Source: a virus. From it: 44,429 nt of DNA. Below the pieces are notes generated by a model. The model was not told the origin of the DNA. It saw only the letters and a program-made list of their open reading frames with translations, and did not search any database. Both the position numbers and the translations under genes were made by a program. The stretch covers positions 1 to 44,429 of IMG/VR virus record IMGVR_UViG_3300010430_000116; one strand, 5' to 3'. Positions 1 through 44,429 of the stretch are shown one piece after another. Position 1 is the stretch's first letter, and every line of letters starts with the position of its first letter.

Positions 1-123
1 CATCGTCTATACCTAGAGTATCTCTAATCTGCAAGGTTAGTTTACTGTTAGTTATAGTGTTACCTGAAGGGTCATAAGTAATAATCACAGGGTCTATAGC
101 CCTACTAACAATCATTAAACGAC
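1..123. repeat. Terminal direct repeat, left copy
   Basis: Bases 1-123 are identical to 44307-44429. The repeat lies inside one reading frame that continues correctly across the join, so this is best read as the overlap of a circularly permuted assembly and not the physical end of the packaged DNA. Confidence 0.95.
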
Positions 124-568
124 CTTTAACACTCTGGAATTGAACTCTAGTTGAAGTAGCTAAAGCTGTAGTACCCTCACTTGTACCTGACTTAACATCA
201 TCTAAATCCAACAAGAAGTTCTCTCTAGCACCAGATACATCTGAAGCTGTAGCATCATTAAAGTAAATCTTGTTCCCTAGTTGAACAACAATGAATATCT
301 TAGCTGCATTATTATTGACGTTATCCCAGCGATATATGTTAAAAGCAGCAGTAGAGGTCATAGGAGCAGCACCTTCAGTGATACTTCCTGTAGTCCCAGC
401 TGCTTCTTCTGTCAATCCTTTTCTAACTCTAATACGTAGAGGGTCATAATCCATCTGCACATTAAGTAAGTCAGCAGCAGATTGTTCAGGGAATTGTAGA
501 GGGTTAGCCTCTGTGTTCAATCCATTGACTGGAACTAGATAGTCCTTATCTCCTCTGACTAAAGGCAT
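1..568 (-). CDS. Tail nozzle/stabilisation-type protein, N-terminal part (crosses map ends)
   Basis: The gene starts with ATG at 568 (MPLVRGDKDY...), runs off the left end and continues in frame at 44306 to a TAA at 44089-44091, giving 261 residues. The N-terminus (VNGLNTEANPLQFPEQSAAD) has the look of large podovirus tail proteins that sit below the adaptor (T7 gp12 or P22 gp10 position). It lies directly after the adaptor and a small gene, as expected for that role. Homologues I recall are about 700-800 residues, so this product is short: the rest of the protein is encoded in the same frame beyond two stop codons (see 43915-44088 and 42631-43902). The functional name is inferred from position and general resemblance. 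Confidence 0.6.
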   Translation of the reverse strand, partial: MPLVRGDKDYLVPVNGLNTEANPLQFPEQSAADLLNVQMDYDPLRIRVRKGLTEEAAGTTGSITEGAAPMTSTAAFNIYRWDNVNNNAAKIFIVVQLGNKIYFNDATASDVSGARENFLLDLDDVKSGTSEGTTALATSTRVQFQSVKGRLMIVSRAIDPVIITYDPSGNTITNSKLTLQIRDTLGIDD

Positions 569-18378: not shown

Positions 18379-18427
18379 ATTATTTCTGTGATAGAATGTC
18401 ACAACTATTTAAGACTTGGAGAGCAAT

Positions 18428-18916
18428 GTGGACTATTTGACACAAAAGTATGTTAAGGAACTTTTTGAATATCAAGATGGCGAACTGATATGGAAATCTA
18501 ACAGGGGTAAAAATCAAACCAAAGGTAAAATTGCAGGTAGCGAAAAGAGTCACAACTATAAGCGTATTAGGTTTAATGGTAGGACTCACTATGCTCATAG
18601 ACTAATCTTCCTTTATCACCATGGCTACCTACCTAACATGATTGACCATATCAACGGCAATAAGTTTGACAATCGTATTGAAAATTTACGAGAGTGTAAT
18701 AAATCTACAAATGCTATTAACTCTTGTGTAAGCAGCCGCAATACCTCTGGAGTGAAGGGTGTGTATTTTGACAAAGCAATATCTAAATGGTGTGCTACCT
18801 TAACTATCAATGGTAAAAATAAGTTTATAGGTAATTTTGATGACATAGAGCTTGCTGAACTTGTTGTAAAAGAAGCAAGAGAAAAATACCACGGGGAGTT
18901 TGCTAGACATGAGTAA
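18428..18916 (+). CDS. HNH homing endonuclease with AP2 domain
   Basis: 162 residues from the GTG at 18428 (MDYLTQKYVKELFEYQDG is the usual N-terminus of this family); a TTG at 18416 is in frame but less likely. The HNH core is MIDHINGNKFDNRIENLREC at about 70-90, followed by the AP2 DNA-binding domain TSGVKGVYFDK...KWCATLTINGK at about 110-150. Such enzymes are free-standing mobile genes that cut phage DNA lacking them. It overlaps the primase-helicase start by 8 bases and sits where that gene's zinc domain would be. Confidence 0.88.
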   Translation: MDYLTQKYVKELFEYQDGELIWKSNRGKNQTKGKIAGSEKSHNYKRIRFNGRTHYAHRLIFLYHHGYLPNMIDHINGNKFDNRIENLRECNKSTNAINSCVSSRNTSGVKGVYFDKAISKWCATLTINGKNKFIGNFDDIELAELVVKEAREKYHGEFARHE

Positions 18917-20917: not shown

Positions 20918-21218
20918 GTATAAACCTGATGGTTGGGCTATAATTAAACATGGAAAGGACTTCTTCATCTTTGGTAGCTGGTCTGGTAGTTTTGCTTCTG
21001 GTGACCATTGGCGTAGAAATAGTGGTGTTACTGGTTATAAAGAAGATGAGAACTATTATCATTTCAAAGGTGACTCTGGTTCTGTCTACTCTTGCAGTAA
21101 ACATAGTAATCACATAACAGCTTATAACAGCACTGTATTACTCGCTTCAGTGGATGGTAATGATAATGCAAGTATAGTCAGTATAGAGGAGTTCCTGGAG
21201 GAGTTTGACAATGACTAA
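20910..21218 (+). CDS. Conserved-looking phage hypothetical protein
   Basis: 102 residues, beta-rich: GSWSGSFASGDHWRRNSGVT and FKGDSGSVYSCSKHSN. This pattern recurs in small phage proteins of unknown function near replication genes. Acidic C-terminal helix EEFLEEFDND. Translationally coupled at both ends. Confidence 0.65.
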   Translation: MSEYKPDGWAIIKHGKDFFIFGSWSGSFASGDHWRRNSGVTGYKEDENYYHFKGDSGSVYSCSKHSNHITAYNSTVLLASVDGNDNASIVSIEEFLEEFDND

Positions 21219-21735
21219 ATTAGTCTTTGACCTTGAATGGAAGGTTCCTGAAGATGGAGATGTACTAAGGGATGCTGAACATCTATGGTGTGCTTGTTTT
21301 AAGACAGTTGGTGTAGAATCTTGGACTCAATTCTCTGGTGAATCTCTTAACTTACTACCTAAGTTTATTAGTGAACTAGGCAATCCAACCTTCATAGGCC
21401 ACAATATTCTTGGTGCTGATATGGAGATGCTACGTAGGTTCTATGGAATTAACTACACTGTCTTACCTGACACTATTATGGGTAATCCTTGCACCTTCAT
21501 AGACACTCTCACGCTCTCTCGTAGACTATGGCCTGATAGACTGGCAGTGAAAGGTACTAAGAGCATACATGGCCTGGAAGCCTGGGGCATTAGAACAGGA
21601 GTTAGTAAGCCACAGGTACATGATTGGAGTGACCAACCTATAGAGGTTTATTTGAATAGATGCAGAGAAGATGTACTTAATAATGAAGCGACCTATGAAA
21701 TGCTAATGAAAGAACAGGAGAAATTGTATGGGTAA
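21211..21735 (+). CDS. 3'-5' proofreading exonuclease (separate DNA polymerase domain)
   Basis: 174 residues from ATG 21211, with GGAGGAG upstream. DnaQ-fold motifs: Exo I FDLEW (Asp7, Glu9), Exo II GHNILGADMEML and Exo III YLNRCREDVLNN. The stretch GTKSIHGLEAWG matches T7 gp5 (KSIGSHSLEAWG). In T7 this is the N-terminal domain of one 704-residue enzyme; here it ends at a stop and the polymerase follows 180 bases later as its own gene. Confidence 0.88.
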   Translation: MTKLVFDLEWKVPEDGDVLRDAEHLWCACFKTVGVESWTQFSGESLNLLPKFISELGNPTFIGHNILGADMEMLRRFYGINYTVLPDTIMGNPCTFIDTLTLSRRLWPDRLAVKGTKSIHGLEAWGIRTGVSKPQVHDWSDQPIEVYLNRCREDVLNNEATYEMLMKEQEKLYG

Positions 21736-21925
21736 TGAAGAAGTACCTTGTAAAGAACACCCAGGTGCACCTCACGGGTTTTTAAGAGGCTTATCCCATT
21801 CACAAGGAAGATATGTCTGTGAGTGTGAGCATTGGGAGCCAGAGCAACTAGAACTAGATTTAGATGAACCAAATAATGGTACACATATACCAACTAATGG
21901 TATAGGAGGAGATGATGACTCCTGA
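21728..21925 (+). CDS. Small Cys/His protein inserted between exonuclease and polymerase genes
   Basis: 65 residues: CKEHPGAPHGFLRGLSHSQG, then YVCECEHWEP, with Cys and His placed for one zinc site, then a very acidic tail (EPEQLELDLDEP, GGDDDS). Similar short proteins with CKEHP..PHGF..SHSQ..YVCECE occur in many phages. Its position in the gap of a split polymerase suggests it could join or regulate the two parts; no function is known to me. Confidence 0.65.
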   Translation: MGNEEVPCKEHPGAPHGFLRGLSHSQGRYVCECEHWEPEQLELDLDEPNNGTHIPTNGIGGDDDS

Positions 21926-23456
21926 ATTAGCTATGCAAATGGGACAGAAAACTGACCACTTGATGTCCTTACAAGAAAGAACTGGTGTTAAGTTTGACAT
22001 AGAAGCAGCTAAGAAGTTATATGAGTATTGTTGTGAAGAGATGTTACGTATAGAGAATGAAGTTGAACCTCAACTACCTGAATGTGATTTAAACAAAGGA
22101 GACTTAAAGACTGTTACGCCTCCTGCTAGACAGATGAAAGCTGGCAAGGATGGTCCTATCCCTAGCTCATATAGCGAGAAGTTCTTTGATACAATAGAGC
22201 TTAATGAACAAGGGGAGTGGATTGGTACTAAGGATGGGGTTATGGTTACGTTGCCTTGTGATAATGCACCTCTATACACACAAGGGCCAATGAAGCTTAA
22301 GCATCAAGCACAGCTAAAGGATTGGTTAACTAGTCAAGGATGGAGGCCCACCTTATGGAACTTCCAGAAGAAGGATGGTAAGTTTGTTAGAGAGAATGGT
22401 AAGTTAGTTAAGACTAGTCCTAAGTTCCATGAACAAGGTAATCTATGCCCTAACCTAGAACTACTTGGTGCTAAGGTTGAGATAATTAAGCCTATTGTTA
22501 GATGGCTAAGCTTACGTAATAGACGTAGTGTTATACACAATCCAGAGAAAGAAACAGGCTGGTTAGCTAATGCTAGGTTGTCCGTAGATGGTCGTTTAGG
22601 TGCAGGTAGGGGAGGATTAGCTGCTAGTTTAAGACAGAAGCATGCAACAGTTGTTAATGTACCTAGACCTGGAAGTGTATTAGGTGAAGAGATGAGAAGT
22701 CTATTCATAGCTCCAGAAGGTAAGGTGATTGTAGGTTGGGATGCTTCAGGACTAGAGGCTAGAGTAGAGGCCCATTATACATATAAATATGATGGTGGTG
22801 TGTATGCAACTGAACTACTCGAGGGTGATATACACAGTAAGACAGCTAAAGCAGTTTTTGGTGAGGACATACCAGTAGATGAAGAAGGTAAGGTTGTAGG
22901 TGAGTTTCGCAATCCAGCTAAAGGTATTAAGTATGCATTGACCTATGGCTGTTCAGCTAACAAACTAGCAGACATGGTGGACGAACCACTACCTAAAGCT
23001 AAGGAGATGTACAATGACTTCTGGGAAGCTAACTGGCCTTTGACTAAGTTTAAAGAAAATCTCATTAAACATTGGAAACAAAAGAATGAGAAGGGCATTT
23101 ATTGTTATGTCACTGGTTGTTATCTTCACAGCAGAAGTGAGCATAGCCTTGTCAATCTTGTATTTCAGCACACAGGTGCTACCATTATGGATATATCAGG
23201 TTTATTTATGGACAAATACCTGGGAGGCATTCAATACGATGCTGACAATATACCTTATTATCTTTATAAAGGTTATATGGTTAAGAGAGTGATATACATG
23301 CATGACGAATACCAGTATGAATGTGATGAAGCTATAGCTGATGAGGTAGGAGAGCTAGGTGTTAAGTCTATTATCAAGGCTGGAGAATATTTAAAACTTA
23401 ATGTACCACTAGATGCTGAGTACATGAAGGGAATGAATTGGTGTGAGACTCACTAA
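21915..23456 (+). CDS. Family A (T7-type) DNA polymerase, polymerase domain only
   Basis: 513 residues from ATG 21915, with AGGAGG. Motif A VGWDASGLEARVEA (Asp276), motif B RNPAKGIKYALTYG (Arg332, Lys336, Tyr340) and motif C MHDE (463-465) are complete. LLEGDIHSKTAKAVF equals the T7 NGDIHTKN helix. The segment at about 50-150, ending in LKDWLTSQGWRPTLWN, corresponds to the T7 thumb with its thioredoxin-binding insertion. It lacks any exonuclease, which is supplied by the gene at 21211. Confidence 0.92.
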   Translation: MTPELAMQMGQKTDHLMSLQERTGVKFDIEAAKKLYEYCCEEMLRIENEVEPQLPECDLNKGDLKTVTPPARQMKAGKDGPIPSSYSEKFFDTIELNEQGEWIGTKDGVMVTLPCDNAPLYTQGPMKLKHQAQLKDWLTSQGWRPTLWNFQKKDGKFVRENGKLVKTSPKFHEQGNLCPNLELLGAKVEIIKPIVRWLSLRNRRSVIHNPEKETGWLANARLSVDGRLGAGRGGLAASLRQKHATVVNVPRPGSVLGEEMRSLFIAPEGKVIVGWDASGLEARVEAHYTYKYDGGVYATELLEGDIHSKTAKAVFGEDIPVDEEGKVVGEFRNPAKGIKYALTYGCSANKLADMVDEPLPKAKEMYNDFWEANWPLTKFKENLIKHWKQKNEKGIYCYVTGCYLHSRSEHSLVNLVFQHTGATIMDISGLFMDKYLGGIQYDADNIPYYLYKGYMVKRVIYMHDEYQYECDEAIADEVGELGVKSIIKAGEYLKLNVPLDAEYMKGMNWCETH

Positions 23457-25095: not shown

Positions 25096-25283
25096 AGATG
25101 ATGGATATAAAAGACCTGATTGAGATGAAAAAAGCTATATCTGAAGCTGATGTACCTGTTGAAGATAGGTGTATCTATCTAAATGAAAAAGCTTTTACCC
25201 TTGTCTTCAAGGATATGGGTTTATCGGATGATGAGATTGAACAATTTATTTCTGAACAACGTATAAGGTTTGGAGGAGCTTAA
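25077..25283 (+). CDS. Hypothetical protein after the 5' nuclease
   Basis: Up to 68 residues, helical and acidic (ADVPVEDRCIYLNEKAFTLV). Possible starts: ATG 25077, GTG 25092 (GGGAG spaced 6 bases) and ATG 25098. Overlaps the nuclease end. No family. Confidence 0.55.
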   Translation: MGEAIVKMMDIKDLIEMKKAISEADVPVEDRCIYLNEKAFTLVFKDMGLSDDEIEQFISEQRIRFGGA

Positions 25284-25696
25284 TGCCAAACAAACCATAC
25301 AACAACGGACAATGGACAGAGGCAAGGATGAGGTCTTTCATTATATCGGCTCTGAGAGGAGCTAGTCAGAGATGGGGACCAAAGAACGAATGCCTAAGGA
25401 AAGCTAGGGTAAGGAGAGGTTGGTACCTCTGTGAAGGATGTGGACAGGAAGTTCCAGCAACAAAGGAAGGGGTGTATAAGACAGGGAAGAAGAAGGGCAA
25501 GAAGAAACGGATTAAGAACATACTTGCTGACCATATAGACCCGATAGTAGACCCAAGGACGGGATTTAAGGACTATGATACATGGATAGAAAGATGCTTT
25601 GTAGAAGCAGATGGTTATCAAGCTCTGTGTCATGATTGTCATGAGCTTAAATCTAATGAAGAGAAAGCTATAGCGAAAGCTAGGAGAAAGAAATGA
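25283..25696 (+). CDS. HNH endonuclease
   Basis: 137 residues. Zinc pairs: CEGC at about 50-53 and CHDC at about 116-119, enclosing ADHIDPIVDPRTGFKDYDTW, the HNH core (His in ADHID). DGYQALCHDCHELKSNEEK matches the usual C-terminus of small phage HNH nucleases of this cluster. It sits where T7 has its endonuclease I, so it may do junction or host-DNA cutting; a homing role is less likely because it has no DNA-binding module. Confidence 0.78.
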   Translation: MPNKPYNNGQWTEARMRSFIISALRGASQRWGPKNECLRKARVRRGWYLCEGCGQEVPATKEGVYKTGKKKGKKKRIKNILADHIDPIVDPRTGFKDYDTWIERCFVEADGYQALCHDCHELKSNEEKAIAKARRKK

Positions 25697-33697: not shown

Positions 33698-34366
33698 TTA
33701 GTTTAAGTCCTCTTTGTTTATAGATGTTTCATAAGCTTCTTCAGTTCTTGCGTTAAGCAACTCAAGTTCTTCTTTATTCTTTTGTATAGCGCAGATAGTT
33801 CTTTCAAAGAATTCTTCTAGCTTATCTAGTGATTCTGTATTACCTGCAATGTCTGTTAATAGTTCAGTTAAATCACCCACTAAGTCATCCACCCTGTCAT
33901 CGAGAGTAGCGAATTCACTACGCCAACCTCCACCACCACCTGAGTTATTCAGTATGGCATTGTTAATCTTCTTCAACCAACCATCTAAATCTTCTTTAGT
34001 GACTAGCCCATCTGTATCTAACTCTTCTCTGATAACCTGTATCTCAGGTACTATCTCAGTATTATCATTAGCTTTATATTCAGCCCAATCAATCATCTGC
34101 TGTCTAATCATAGACTCTATAGCTTCAGGAGATAGAGGTTGTTCCTTTAATACCTCTACTTCCTTTGTATGGACTTCCTTGACTACTTCTGTCTTATTGA
34201 TAGGTTGTGGTATCTGTTTAACAATATCGTCTATTGTAGGAGCTTGAGGGAGCTGAGAGATAACCTTCTGTACAAAGGCTAACTCCTCTTTTTCTTTCTT
34301 CTTACGCTCTAGTTCTTTCTGTTTAGAGAAGTTCCTAGCAGCAGCTAATAGTTTTAGACTAGCCAT
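33698..34366 (-). CDS. Coiled-coil virion-associated protein
   Basis: 222 residues. N-terminal basic helix (KQKELERKKKEKEELAFVQK), a Pro-rich middle (QAPTIDDIVKQIPQPI), a Gly5 hinge at about 145-149, then an acidic coiled coil to the end. This rod-hinge-rod form suits a fibre stem or linker for the following surface proteins. No family recognised. Confidence 0.6.
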   Translation of the reverse strand: MASLKLLAAARNFSKQKELERKKKEKEELAFVQKVISQLPQAPTIDDIVKQIPQPINKTEVVKEVHTKEVEVLKEQPLSPEAIESMIRQQMIDWAEYKANDNTEIVPEIQVIREELDTDGLVTKEDLDGWLKKINNAILNNSGGGGGWRSEFATLDDRVDDLVGDLTELLTDIAGNTESLDKLEEFFERTICAIQKNKEELELLNARTEEAYETSINKEDLN

Positions 34367-39500: not shown

Positions 39501-41210
39501 ACTATCAGTAGCCCATTTCTTTTCTCTCATATATTTCTGAGAAATTTGTTCAAAAACAGCTCTGTTTCTTTTGGTGATTACTGGGTTACCACCTTTCAAG
39601 CCTTTAGTGATACCTTTCTTAATTACAGAACTTGCAGCTTCCATTGTGGCATTGTGACTAGCTTCTGCTAATCTACCAGCAGATAGTAAAGTGTTATTAA
39701 TGATGTTATCAATGTTGTTGAAACCTCTTGTACCAAGTACTTCATCACTGAACCCTGCATCACTGTATGTCCACTTACCTTCAAGTACCCATCCTCCAGC
39801 AGAGTGTTCCTTCACTTTCATGAACTTACTATCTAGTTGTTCTAGGTACATCTCTGCACTTTCTTTGTCTATAAATCTTTGACCTTCTCTGTCTCCTAAC
39901 TTCGCTATGATATTACCAGAGTCATCAACAGACATATCTAAGAATTCACGTATAGGTTTATCTAACTCAACTTCGTTTAGAGCTTTTTGTATAAATTCCT
40001 CTGTATAAGCAGGAGATAAGCTATTGTTTACAATCCTGTTCAACTCTGTCTGCTGTGAACGTAACATCTTATCTACAGAACCAGAGAATGTAAAACCAGT
40101 CTCTGACGTAGGTTTAGTAGGTAGCATAACACCTACCTGATCTTCTATAGAACTGAACACATTATTCTGGTCTAAGTCTTTCAAACCTTGTTTAATAAGC
40201 TCATCAGCATTACCTGTCATGTTAGCCATAGCAGCTAATCCAGTAGTAGCGTCATCCATAACAACTGCTTTAGATTGGTTTAATGACTTTAATATAGGGT
40301 CAGCAGAGATAGTTTCTATGTCAGCTGCTTTTCTTAATGCCAGTCCTTTAACACCTGTCTTTAATAAAGCTGCTGCATCTCCAGCACCTACCAGACCTTC
40401 CATCATAAGACCTAGAGTAGTAGCATTATCATCAAACTCAGTACCAAACACTGCTTGGTTTAAAACTCCAGCTGCATAAGCAGGGTTTTCCCATAGAGAC
40501 TGTTGGTCTTTAAGTTGCCTTACTAACTCCTGTGCTGCTTGGTATCTCTCTTCTTCAGGTAACTCATCTATACGTCTAATGTTCTCACGTATAGTGTTCA
40601 TAGCATCACCATCAATGTTCATCCAATCTAAAGCTTCTTTACCTACCAGGTGTCCAGCTAGGTCGAGAGTATCACTTACTATGCTTTCATTCTCTTGAAG
40701 CTTCATTTCATTACCGATGATATTACCCCACATCATTCGATTAAGAGCTTCAACTTTAATTTTATCTTGTAAATCTATATTCTTACCACCAAGCTCTTGA
40801 GCTACTGGTGATATAGGGTTTGAAAACTTCTCAATAGCTAATCTTTCCATAGCTATCTGGCTCTTTGATAGTTCAGATATATCTAACATTTGTTTAGCAA
40901 CAAAATCAGCCTGTACGTCTGGGTTAGCTATTTGTTCTACTAACTCACGTTTCTTTACTGCTTCTCTTTGTATGAAATCAAAAGCACTAACCTCTTCCCT
41001 TGCACCTTCCGTATTACCATTCATTGTAAGGTTATTAACATAACGTTCCAAGTCTTGATTATTACCTTTTACTGCTATTTGGGATAGATTAGACATACGT
41101 TTCTTGTAGTCATCTGTATGAGCGCCTGATGCAACTTCATTCTCTATTACTTCAGGGATTAAGTAGCTATTAGAACTTTGTTCTTTCTTTTCTGGAATTA
41201 AATTAGCCAT
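36510..41210 (-). CDS. Giant internal virion protein (gp16-like)
   Basis: 1566 residues, the largest gene. It is helical throughout; a region around 1050-1110 (FNMKLGLFNPASFIMQFVQS) matches a motif often seen in large ejected proteins of podoviruses. No transglycosylase motif as in T7 gp16 could be found, so cell-wall opening may rely on another protein. It is expected to leave the virion with the DNA and build the trans-envelope channel. Confidence 0.75.
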   Translation of the reverse strand: MANLIPEKKEQSSNSYLIPEVIENEVASGAHTDDYKKRMSNLSQIAVKGNNQDLERYVNNLTMNGNTEGAREEVSAFDFIQREAVKKRELVEQIANPDVQADFVAKQMLDISELSKSQIAMERLAIEKFSNPISPVAQELGGKNIDLQDKIKVEALNRMMWGNIIGNEMKLQENESIVSDTLDLAGHLVGKEALDWMNIDGDAMNTIRENIRRIDELPEEERYQAAQELVRQLKDQQSLWENPAYAAGVLNQAVFGTEFDDNATTLGLMMEGLVGAGDAAALLKTGVKGLALRKAADIETISADPILKSLNQSKAVVMDDATTGLAAMANMTGNADELIKQGLKDLDQNNVFSSIEDQVGVMLPTKPTSETGFTFSGSVDKMLRSQQTELNRIVNNSLSPAYTEEFIQKALNEVELDKPIREFLDMSVDDSGNIIAKLGDREGQRFIDKESAEMYLEQLDSKFMKVKEHSAGGWVLEGKWTYSDAGFSDEVLGTRGFNNIDNIINNTLLSAGRLAEASHNATMEAASSVIKKGITKGLKGGNPVITKRNRAVFEQISQKYMREKKWATDSEFATDWLRLRGKRVTQGQLAAYHSMKQLDEMAYQLDNTTIYRSELSRGYGTYDIGDGFSIDVDRINGKAEDISKITNESGDLTSHITIFQETNTTRARTANPLEMSKLDLEKLNETHQLVRISDKSGASFFGSLGSKQTKYVYIPKNIKQRALDDRQLAKAGGGRGGYSHPHYVKVARREIYDDGSTARIHDLTIAASDTMNQGADYAHKLTEAFKILKARQTEEITTEVADQQIRKLGLFDGAVSFQKADDVLAWGVKKRIITSEGKDIPVIQAVRDGDSVVTDSSGFIADLGEDVRTTYQGRSFSKHRSQEEMYHVDGKKAEILDPIDAIVRNLERSSSMAGWAPFKARSLDFMKKRYGNYLQDVSHPIDYLTVEVKANTPAAIEAEIKNHQTWLKDLIGYKTNYQEGFARTAEDMIDKTFDKIPQLEKAGNWMTATMNKAWLGDLSTKRSNVRSSLIQKAAQDPFVRVKSAVFNMKLGLFNPASFIMQFVQSVNIMAITGKEGMQAGSTGLLGRIAMNMDDEAIEAMAKKVGIKELGFDSPDDFIEYVREFKTHGFNYMDKSIAYIDGVAGAQTGSSLAGNLADRGRFFFNEGERGSRLTAYGAARREWKNSKKGVNPKGLSATSDEGRKYIQDRTHTLMLGMTKADLQLSFRAREGAGAFNNAIPLMTQFWSYPFRAIGVMFGKNLTKQEKWRLGLANFAMFGSAGIPLVDTVSGWLDNKYGDKVDKGLSKLLTNGMLDALMFEAFEADTAFGQRGGIGHFVSTLTTDVFEKDFIDFITGAGGSTSMGVIDAFQDGFRAYGAYNGNVVEGFSEAAMAATIEQISSLNNTTKFLYALHAGEVLDRNKRKYFNVTKTEAFLNLVGVPFEKYQTMNDLMTSEKKRREFIKDATEDFLTIQAELASAYEDKDEEKVAHFQERLAFMGEAIREKSPLIWRDVRSSVVRNQMGRNTFDRMFSTSMRRYVIGDDYFTPKGAVSRELERKQLELKQEGEQ

Positions 41211-41782
41211 TATTGTTTAGAAAACCCCATAGTATCATTAGTACCGTCAGTAGCTCCAATCTCAGGAGCAGTAGTTTTATTCTTACCCCAGTTACTGCCA
41301 GCAGCTACTGAAGCAGCTACAGAACCGAAGGCTTGTGTTTGTCTTGCTTGCCATGTTTTGTTAGCAGCCTCTTGTACTCTACTGCTAGCTAAGCTTCTTA
41401 GTAGCTCTTGTTGTTGTAGGAAGTTTATATTGCCGCCTGTCTGAGCCTTAACCGAACCGATTGCACCTGAGGCTAGGCTAGAACCAGCTATACCACCAGT
41501 TTCAGCTAATGCAGCTAGCTGAGCTGCCTCTATTTGAGCTTGCCTTACAGCCTCTATAGCACCTCTTTGTTGTTCTAACCTACGAGCATTTTCTGCTGCT
41601 AGTGCAGCCTTACGTCTTTCTGCCTCTGCTCTGCGGCCAAACAAATCAAGAGGGTCGCCCAACAAACCAAGCTGTTTATCTGTTAGTAGTTTCTCACCTA
41701 CTATTTTACGACCACCTACTAAAGACCCTAAACCACCAGTAACAGCACTACTGGTTATATTATCAGCTAATCCACCACTCAT
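41210..41782 (-). CDS. Internal virion protein, gp14-like, copy 2
   Basis: 190 residues, Ala/Gln/Gly rich. The core (AVRQAQIEAAQLAALAETGG, then AIGSVKAQTGGNINF) is clearly related to the smaller protein at 42233-42631 (AVRRAQIERAAILAAGASQG, AVGSIQSQTGGSIGF). Such proteins form the outermost channel ring on ejection. Extra N-terminal part (about 50 residues) contains GGLGSLVGGRK. Confidence 0.72.
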   Translation of the reverse strand: MSGGLADNITSSAVTGGLGSLVGGRKIVGEKLLTDKQLGLLGDPLDLFGRRAEAERRKAALAAENARRLEQQRGAIEAVRQAQIEAAQLAALAETGGIAGSSLASGAIGSVKAQTGGNINFLQQQELLRSLASSRVQEAANKTWQARQTQAFGSVAASVAAGSNWGKNKTTAPEIGATDGTNDTMGFSKQ

Positions 41783-42267
41783 AGTCTATCAACCTCTTCT
41801 TTAGTAATACCTAGTAGTATTTGGTCATGGTACTCACCATTCTTAAAATAGGACTTAGATAACATCCCCTCAACTACAAGACCTACATTCATAGCAGCTT
41901 TAATAACGTAGTTGTGGTTCATACCTATAATAGCTTGAACTTTCTGTACACTACCTAGCTTAACTAAAAACTTTAATAAAGCTTTACACATACTTCTAAA
42001 CTTAAACCTATGTTCATACATTAAGTAAGGGTGGACCTGAACTGTATGTTTCTGCATAGGACTAACCTTACACACTCCAATTAACTCACCATCGACCAAG
42101 AAATCTAACCAAAGCTCTCTTTCATCTTGATGTATATTTGTTTTGTTTGGGTCTAATCCATCTTCAGCATACTTATCCCAGCATAGGAATAAAACCTGGG
42201 CTACTTGATTTAGGTCATCACTGACTTGAACATCAACCACGGAAGCCACGTGCCACGGATGACCCAA
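41779..42267 (-). CDS. GNAT-like protein (T7 gp13 position)
   Basis: Up to 162 residues; the TTG at 42267 or a GTG at 42249 or 42240 may be the start, none with a strong ribosome site. ELWLDFLVDGELIGVCKVSP, then HPYLMYEHRFKFRSMCKALL and IIGMNHNYVIKAAMNVGLVV follow the GNAT fold (beta strand, acetyl-CoA helix, N/Y near the end). T7 gp13 is likewise GNAT-like and needed for assembly. The gene sits between the two gp14-like copies. Confidence 0.65.
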   Translation of the reverse strand: MGHPWHVASVVDVQVSDDLNQVAQVLFLCWDKYAEDGLDPNKTNIHQDERELWLDFLVDGELIGVCKVSPMQKHTVQVHPYLMYEHRFKFRSMCKALLKFLVKLGSVQKVQAIIGMNHNYVIKAAMNVGLVVEGMLSKSYFKNGEYHDQILLGITKEEVDRL

Positions 42268-42631
42268 TAGCTACACCAGTAGCAGTAATAGATTCTTGTC
42301 TAGCAGCATCTTCTAATCTTCTACTTTGTTCTTGACGCAGAGCAAAGGTTTGCTGACTGAACCCTATACTACCTCCAGTTTGAGACTGTATAGAACCCAC
42401 AGCTCCTTGTACAGCACTAGAACCTTGTACTCCTTGAGAAGCACCAGCAGCTAATATAGCAGCTCTTTCTATCTGAGCTCTACGTACCGCTTGTTGTAGT
42501 TTACGTTGTTGGTCTAGCTTTCTACGCTTAGCTTGCAGTCGTCTAGCTTTCTTAGATGACTGTCTAGCCTCTTCTTGTTTAATTCCAGTAGATACAGCAG
42601 TCACTACGCCTATAATTGCACCAGCACCCAT
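42233..42631 (-). CDS. Internal virion protein, gp14-like, copy 1
   Basis: 132 residues: a hydrophobic start (GAGAIIGVVTAVSTGI), a basic coiled coil (KKARRLQAKRRKLDQQRKLQ), then AVQGAVGSIQSQTGGSIGFS and a helix. Closely similar in the second half to the 190-residue protein at 41210. Predicted ejected channel component; duplicated in this phage. Confidence 0.72.
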   Translation of the reverse strand: MGAGAIIGVVTAVSTGIKQEEARQSSKKARRLQAKRRKLDQQRKLQQAVRRAQIERAAILAAGASQGVQGSSAVQGAVGSIQSQTGGSIGFSQQTFALRQEQSRRLEDAARQESITATGVAIGSSVARGFRG

Positions 42632-43902
42632 TAGATGCCTCCTTTCATATTGTATTGAACTGTATAACCTAGTAGTTCAAAGTTCTTACCAGGAGTCTGT
42701 TCAAAGCGAATAGAGAGAGCATTACCCCTACCTCTAATCTTAATCTTGTTTGTAACTACAGTTTCACCTGAGTTAAAAGGACCAGCAGCATCAGGAAGAT
42801 AGAAACGTCTAAACTTATATGCTTCTTGGCTAGGACCAAACCTACCATTAGCATTTGTATCATTCCAATCCCATTTAGAACTAACATTACATGAGCTAGG
42901 CTTATCTAAATCTAAATCTCCACCACCTAAGTCTACCCAGTTCTCTTCTGTCTGTCTGAAATGAACAGTCATGTAAGGAGCAACTTTCTTGTTACTAGGC
43001 TTACCTAATGATTCAAAACCTGTATCTAAATAAGCTGTAGTGAAGTTAGAACCGAAGTCCTGGAATGATTCATTAATCTTCTCTGCAAAGCCATAAGAGA
43101 TTGTAGAACTAGCACCACCTACTACAGATTTAACATACATGTAAAGGTCTTCTGCCTCTAGTGCACCTTCTTTAACTGGTACTGCACCTATCAAACTCTT
43201 GTAAGTACCTTCAGCACTGAAATCTAAACCTGAGTTATATTTATTTACAAACCAACCTTTAGAACGAGTGTCTAGACTTAAGCTCTTATTAACTAAGAAT
43301 GGGTTATCTTTTGTGTCTGTATCACAATAGAACCATTCAATAGTCTTTTTTGTTTTGTTGTAGAACCCTGTAGCTGTGGTTTTCTGTGCAATAGATATTT
43401 GGTCGAAGAAGGTTTGAACTGTATCGAATGAAATGTTTTCTGGTTCAACTGTAGCAAACTTGTTCTGACTGATACGGTAGATGCCAGAACGTGACCAGTA
43501 TACCACAGAACCTTCAGCCTTGACAACTGTATTTTCACCAACACAACCTTCATCTGTTAATTTCTTGACAGAGAAACTTGTAGCTGTAAAACCACCATCT
43601 GGTCCTGATACATACCATACACCATTGTTAGCAAAGATTATTACACCTTGTAATAACTCAACCATCTGTATAATACGGTCAGCTCCATTGATAGGAATAG
43701 TACCGCCATCTGTAGCAAGTATATCACTAATCTGTTCTGCTGTAGGGTCATTCTTCTGGTAACACTTAGAAGCACTAGCTACAGATTGACCCTCTAATAA
43801 TTGACTGTAGTATACGATTGAATCTAAACCATAGAAGATACGACCAGCAATATAAGCTATACATTCTGGACGACCATCAATTGTTTCATTAGCAATTGCC
43901 AT
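42631..43902 (-). CDS. Tail nozzle/stabilisation-type protein, C-terminal part
   Basis: 423 residues. The ATG at 43902 has AAGGA made by the TAAGGA just upstream. RPECIAYIAGRIFYGLDSIV, then GVWYVSGPDGGFTATSFSVK and SRSGIYRIS follow the beta-propeller layout of podovirus tail nozzle and P22 gp10-like proteins. It is in the same frame as the gene ending at 44089, and no stop other than the two TAA codons lies between. It may be made separately and assemble with the N-terminal part. Confidence 0.72.
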   Translation of the reverse strand: MAIANETIDGRPECIAYIAGRIFYGLDSIVYYSQLLEGQSVASASKCYQKNDPTAEQISDILATDGGTIPINGADRIIQMVELLQGVIIFANNGVWYVSGPDGGFTATSFSVKKLTDEGCVGENTVVKAEGSVVYWSRSGIYRISQNKFATVEPENISFDTVQTFFDQISIAQKTTATGFYNKTKKTIEWFYCDTDTKDNPFLVNKSLSLDTRSKGWFVNKYNSGLDFSAEGTYKSLIGAVPVKEGALEAEDLYMYVKSVVGGASSTISYGFAEKINESFQDFGSNFTTAYLDTGFESLGKPSNKKVAPYMTVHFRQTEENWVDLGGGDLDLDKPSSCNVSSKWDWNDTNANGRFGPSQEAYKFRRFYLPDAAGPFNSGETVVTNKIKIRGRGNALSIRFEQTPGKNFELLGYTVQYNMKGGI

Positions 43903-43914
43903 TATTATTCCTTA

Positions 43915-44088
43915 TGGGACTTCTGAGCCTGGAGGTACATCTGTTTCATCTTGTGGACTTGAACCACCAACAGAGCCAGTAGGATTCTGAGGATTAGTCT
44001 GTAGTGTCTCTCTGTCTATATCGAAAGCATCTACTATGTAATGTCCTCTAGGTGCAGGAGAACTGCCAAATGTTTGGTCTTTAAGCCA
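43915..44088 (-). pseudogene. 58-codon open segment between two in-frame stops
   Basis: The stretch after TAA at 44089-44091 reads WLKDQTFGSSPAPRGHYIVD and continues to PPGSEVP, ending at TAA 43912-43914. It is in frame with both flanking tail genes and has no ATG or GTG start of its own. The words GSSPAPRGHYIVDAFDIDR look like normal tail-protein sequence, as though it belonged to one continuous protein. Either it is reached by readthrough or it is a silent remnant. Confidence 0.6.
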
Positions 44089-44429
44089 TTAAGGGTCAAA
44101 GATTAAATCACCTGAACTCTCAACCATACCTACCCATACTATATCTGCATTACTTGGATACTCTGAATGGATTGTATTAAACTCAGCTACTGGGTCTACA
44201 TAGGAACCAGCACTAGCTTTACGTCTAAGCTGATACCACCCTTGATTGTAAAGGTTATACTCATGTTCTTCTGCTAGTGATGCAGGTCTTTCATCTATAC
44301 CTAAGCCATCGTCTATACCTAGAGTATCTCTAATCTGCAAGGTTAGTTTACTGTTAGTTATAGTGTTACCTGAAGGGTCATAAGTAATAATCACAGGGTC
44401 TATAGCCCTACTAACAATCATTAAACGAC
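44089..44429 (-). CDS. Tail nozzle/stabilisation-type protein, part at the right map end
   Basis: The end of the gene that starts at 568 (positions 44307-44429 duplicate 1-123). It contains DTLGIDDGLGIDERPASLAE, ends SSGDLIFDP and stops with TAA. A 110-residue frame starting at 44421 is not a separate gene; it is the inner part of this one, in frame with the start at 568. Confidence 0.65.
   Translation of the reverse strand, partial: RLMIVSRAIDPVIITYDPSGNTITNSKLTLQIRDTLGIDDGLGIDERPASLAEEHEYNLYNQGWYQLRRKASAGSYVDPVAEFNTIHSEYPSNADIVWVGMVESSGDLIFDP
44307..44429. repeat. Terminal direct repeat, right copy
   Basis: Exact copy of bases 1-123; see the left copy. Joining the ends gives one continuous tail gene. 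Confidence 0.95.

Follow-up and report, generated by a model that had tools for sequence, protein, structure and literature searches.

The tail nozzle (tubeB) is encoded by two genes in RIO-1 (gp44 and gp40) and HP1 (gp18 and gp16), which are Pseudoalteromonas phages (Zobellviridae, Melvirus). The GenBank notes of RIO-1 describe gp44 as the N-terminal and gp40 as the C-terminal portion of PA11 gp38. In contrast, the nozzles of the same family in PA11 (Pseudomonas; gp38), CW02 (Salinivibrio) and SIO1 (Roseobacter) are unbroken, each encoded by a single gene of 711-771 aa, which is located between tubeA, a tail protein, and the genes of the internal virion proteins. Literature searches on split nozzle genes found no study on point. 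The HP1 virion proteomics paper (PMC5498523) treats ORF17, the gene between the nozzle halves, as structural and as a candidate for host-range determination.

The DNA analyzed here (the window), IMG/VR record IMGVR_UViG_3300010430_000116, is a circular contig of viral origin, 44,429 bases long. The split nozzle is already known from RIO-1, and the window phage is another member of this type. Its nozzle occupies the same genomic position as in PA11, CW02 and SIO1. It resembles RIO-1 and HP1 in having an N-chain of ~320 aa with a Gly/Pro-rich linker at its end, and a C-chain that begins just before an (A/F)GR(I/L)FY motif. It differs from both in an additional TAA within the N-chain, at a position where RIO-1 and HP1 carry no stop, and in having no gene between the halves. 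The adjacent arrangement, in frame and with 9 nt from stop to ATG, is also found in three Melvirus phages from oysters (PQ867846, PQ867847 and PQ867849), whose C-chains are 33-34% identical to that of the window, but whose N-chain is intact.

The interrupted frame and its identification as a nozzle

On the minus strand, a frame opens at an ATG, crosses the circular junction and runs for 261 codons to a first TAA. It stays open for another 58 sense codons, among which the stretch WLKDQTFGSSPAPR is encoded, up to a second TAA; GGA ATA ATA and the ATG of the next gene follow with the frame unchanged (Table 1). Translation reproduced exactly what the original prediction had described here, and the AAGGA site that it placed before the next gene was found as well. 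Apart from the internal stop, the N-chain frame of 320 codons has the usual length for the clade. The exact repeat at the contig ends is most likely a k-mer overlap left when the circle was assembled; taken as such, it leaves a true map of 44,306 bases. As its length is a multiple of three (41 codons), either copy preserves the frame. A contig-end artefact was ruled out, since the repeat leaves the frame intact and, once the circle is joined, the first stop is 215 bases inside it.

Table 1. Features of the nozzle locus and of the contig ends in the window.
Feature	Position	Strand	Evidence
Exact terminal direct repeat, 123 bp	1-123 = 44307-44429		Sequence
Nozzle N-chain, first part, starting with ATG 568; on the circular map it resumes at 44306	1..568	-	Translation across the junction
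Remainder of the N-chain frame, including the stop at the conserved position and the internal TAA	43912..44306	-	Translation, alignment
First TAA, N-chain codon 262	44089..44091	-	Alignment and genome-wide scan
Conserved block WLKDQTFGSSPAPRGHYIVDAFDIDRETLQ, 30 codons directly past the first TAA	43999..44088	-	Identity, alignment
N-chain terminal linker, variable, low-complexity	43915..43998	-	12-24% identity to relatives; low pLDDT
Second TAA, predicted to end the N-chain gene naturally, at the split point shared by the clade	43912..43914	-	Split in relatives
AAGGA, putative C-chain ribosome-binding site overlapping the second TAA	43909..43913	-	Sequence; six bases before the ATG
Nozzle C-chain, 423 aa, ATG at 43902	42631..43902	-	phrog_8094, C-chain identity, fold

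Both chains match the tail appendage family phrog_8094, the C-chain with an E value of 2.3e-99 and the N-chain part at 44092-44427 with 4.8e-17. The read-through frame was modelled with AlphaFold2 from an alignment of 34 rows (pLDDT 76.6). In a Foldseek search its best PDB matches were podovirus tail nozzles, with E values from 1.5e-18 to ~1e-8; the TM-scores are low (0.3-0.4), and the agreement with the beta-propeller nozzle is thus one of fold only. The matched folds comprise the tail tubular protein B of cyanophage A4 (9k09), the SU10 tail, P22 gp10 and the T7 tail, all of which, unlike the window nozzle, consist of a single chain; their sequence identity to the window is 8-14%. The fold search was performed with the window model, the AlphaFold model of the unsplit nozzle L031 being of lower confidence and left out. 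Together, the family matches and the fold identify the protein as a nozzle (tubeB), as had been proposed from the sequence. The named relatives are podoviruses of the Zobellviridae, to which the large terminase is ~52-55% identical. Megablast against phages returned no match to the window, whose lineage has no close named relative, and a search of sequenced prokaryote genomes gave one distant match.

The two TAA codons very probably result from two independent events, a clade-wide split of the nozzle gene and a nonsense codon or consensus error private to this record, and neither from recoding nor from programmed readthrough. The original prediction had described them as one feature; both stops stand in the sequence as described, but they are separate phenomena.

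The second TAA and the split of the nozzle gene

Judged from the comparison with related phages, the nozzle (tubeB) gene is naturally split, and the second TAA is simply the regular end of its first half. Two-gene nozzles were found in RIO-1, HP1, T2S1, Vibrio phage 1.208.B, five Melvirus phages from oyster metagenomes and many IMG/VR loci, and one-gene nozzles in CW02, PA11, SIO1, ICBM2, ICP2 and the IMG/VR loci L035, L028, L031, L032, L034 and L041. Wherever the linker can be aligned, the break falls at the identical point, in a Gly/Pro-rich stretch that immediately precedes the GR(I/L)FY motif. The window has its two chains in separate genes with the break before GRIFY, as in the RIO-1/Melvirus-type split. 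Split relatives have N-chains of ~320-370 aa and C-chains of ~390-430 aa, the latter 33-47% identical to that of the window. In a maximum likelihood tree of 32 nozzles, the 20 split and 12 unsplit ones lie on opposite sides of one branch (100/99), and the window groups on the split side with L016, L003, L002 and L014. A single change on the tree is therefore enough to account for the break; the direction of this change depends on the root. Residues 152-182 of the model, a span containing the second stop (residue 172), show a pLDDT below 50, in line with what is expected for a flexible linker.

The spacing between the halves varies within the clade. Some split relatives keep both halves in one frame, 0, 6 or 9 nt apart; in others they are out of frame, at -1 and -4 (overlaps of 1 or 4 nt), at 8, 14 and 17 nt and with most gene insertions. 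A TAAGGA or TAGGAG site overlapping the stop, like that of the window, is present in several relatives. The variable frames and spacing, together with these ribosome-binding sites, indicate that the C-half is likely to be initiated independently, with no need for readthrough. In this reading, the nozzle of RIO-1/Melvirus-type Zobellviridae is encoded by two neighbouring genes, the C-chain starting at its own ribosome-binding site adjoining or overlapping the N-chain stop. The two chains, interrupted within a flexible linker, would then presumably assemble as one nozzle subunit.

A fused full-length nozzle, produced as a minor product by programmed readthrough at the second TAA, would fit the shared frame of the halves in the window, L002, L003, L005, the three phages L007-L009 and L040. 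However, at least 12 other split relatives have the halves in different frames or separated by genes, and L005 has two in-frame stops between them. The C-chain is also preceded by a ribosome-binding site and begins with an ATG of its own, and no RNA structure was detected past the stop; this reading is highly improbable. In programmed readthrough, stop and frame are expected to be conserved, while here the first stop is absent from the relatives and the frame at the second one varies. A stimulatory RNA structure or a suppressor tRNA would also be expected; the RNA beside the two stops folds no better than shuffled sequences (z 0.20 and -0.57), and the phage genome encodes no tRNA.

Reassignment of TAA is contradicted by its normal use as a stop, as the original prediction had argued: it ends 39 of the 61 genes listed, 14 of them as TAATG, and a single case of internal TAA is found. 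That TAA codes for an amino acid in the late genes of this phage is barely conceivable, even if the nozzle is a late structural gene placed among tail and internal virion genes. Late genes end in TAA, several as TAATG, no other one contains an internal TAA, and no suppressor tRNA is encoded. Readthrough and recoding were thus rejected as explanations on the varying frames, the normal use of TAA and the lack of phage tRNA and RNA structure, and the readthrough option of the original prediction is likewise not supported. The naturally split two-chain nozzle that it had also offered holds for the second TAA and fails for the first, which is private to this record.

The apparent oddity of a double stop thus mostly reflects a clade-wide gene arrangement in which an essential part of the tail is encoded as two chains. 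Such a split is easily missed, since the halves are annotated as "tail appendage (x2)" or "hypothetical protein".

Between the nozzle halves, RIO-1 has three genes (L043, 995-2946), HP1 one (L011, 1930-2472), KZY1-k141_1263260 one (L046, 1927-2964) and the window none. The split point seems to accept gene insertions.

The first TAA within the N-chain

With a stop at codon 262, the N-chain of the window falls short of the ~320 aa or more of an intact one. In the alignment of N-chains and unsplit nozzles, all 27 other sequences have a sense codon in this column, an acidic one in the nearest relatives. The stop is therefore private among the records compared, the nearest nozzles being only ~50-60% identical to that of the window. 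Among the records open to search, an exact-pattern search for the first TAA gave no matches, and a degenerate one retrieved only the L005 contig, with a sense codon at that position. None of the homologues ends at the first TAA, and every relative seen has an intact copy of the gene.

The segment beyond it had been proposed for comparison with homologues, and proved conserved in part. The 30 codons of WLKDQTFGSSPAPRGHYIVDAFDIDRETLQ are 63-83% identical to the four closest relatives compared, against 36-56% for the remaining N-chain. Across the pairs of closest relatives, the amino-acid identity of the block is 60-83% and in most pairs exceeds that of the remaining N-chain. The rest of the segment is the variable linker. 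Within the block, 7-11 identical residues are encoded by different synonymous codons. High identity combined with synonymous changes points to selection on the protein that persisted up to recent times. The motif is common to split and unsplit relatives, and the block is modelled as folded, with a mean pLDDT of ~76-80. An intron or another RNA family was rejected as an explanation, as the window matches no Rfam family and the segment encodes conserved protein sequence.

The whole genome was scanned for stops flanked on each side by 30 in-frame codons of coding-like sequence, which gave three clear cases: 33698-33700 and the two TAAs of the nozzle. An ATG follows the stop at 33698-33700 at once and the second TAA after four codons; past the first TAA, alone among the three, the next stop is reached with no start codon in between. 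Of the 39 gene-ending TAAs checked elsewhere, 38 are followed by another stop in the same frame within 29 codons, and the remaining one abuts the next gene. The open frame past the first TAA is thus more than chance. Reinitiation inside the 58-codon segment, one of the options initially put forward, was eliminated, as no in-frame ATG, GTG or TTG occurs before the second stop. The TAATGG at the first stop opens only ATG GCT TAA, two codons in another frame.

The first TAA is most likely a nonsense change that arose recently and is present in the assembled population of the phage, or else an error in the consensus of the metagenomic assembly. If real and unsuppressed, it would leave a 261-aa N-chain without the conserved RGHYI block. 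With a conserved block lost that is predicted to be folded, a strong effect on the nozzle is to be expected under these conditions. Essential structural genes do not commonly have a deleterious stop fixed in their consensus, which counts against our main reading. That most virions carry the first TAA and either suppress it or tolerate it as a second cut in a split nozzle with a working 261-residue N-chain is unlikely.

Each of these two routes was weighed separately. A real stop could be read through by near-cognate decoding or by a host suppressor tRNA, giving a normal-length N-chain or a minor amount of it. The persisting conservation of the block and the uninterrupted frame up to the second stop are what a product that is still needed would show, but a very recent mutation would leave the conservation unchanged. 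No relative has a stop there, and the absence of phage tRNA, the unremarkable folding of the RNA after the stop and the frequent use of TAA as a gene end all argue against this possibility, which is distinctly improbable. It is very doubtful that the 261-residue N-chain is functional and the 58-codon segment a recent, decaying remnant. Such a truncated form is seen in no relative, it would lose a block that is predicted to be folded and is common to split and unsplit nozzles, and no start codon is available to make the lost segment as a separate chain. On the other hand, the clade already tolerates the natural break of the nozzle, and the lost end includes the variable linker of low model confidence.

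The reading as a recent nonsense change or consensus error also carries a warning. A lone stop in a metagenomic consensus should be backed by reads before any recoding or readthrough is deduced from it.

Other features of the window

Two genes near the nozzle, at 42233-42631 and 41210-41782, both match phrog_8168 (unknown function). This suggests a pair of paralogues, with a phrog_651 gene (head morphogenesis) at 41779-42267 between them. DNA polymerase A also appears to be split, into genes at 21205-21735, 21728-21925 and 21912-23456. Its parts correspond to the exonuclease (positions 669-829 of phrog_17) and the polymerase (835-1233), and a 65-aa ORF separates the two. DNA polymerases split in this way, and likewise carrying a small inserted ORF, have been described in the OM43 phages MEP401 and MEP402 (PMC10580990). 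Two HNH endonuclease genes are present, at 18416-18916 (phrog_99), directly before the primase/helicase gene, and at 25283-25696 (phrog_3106), and are possible homing elements.
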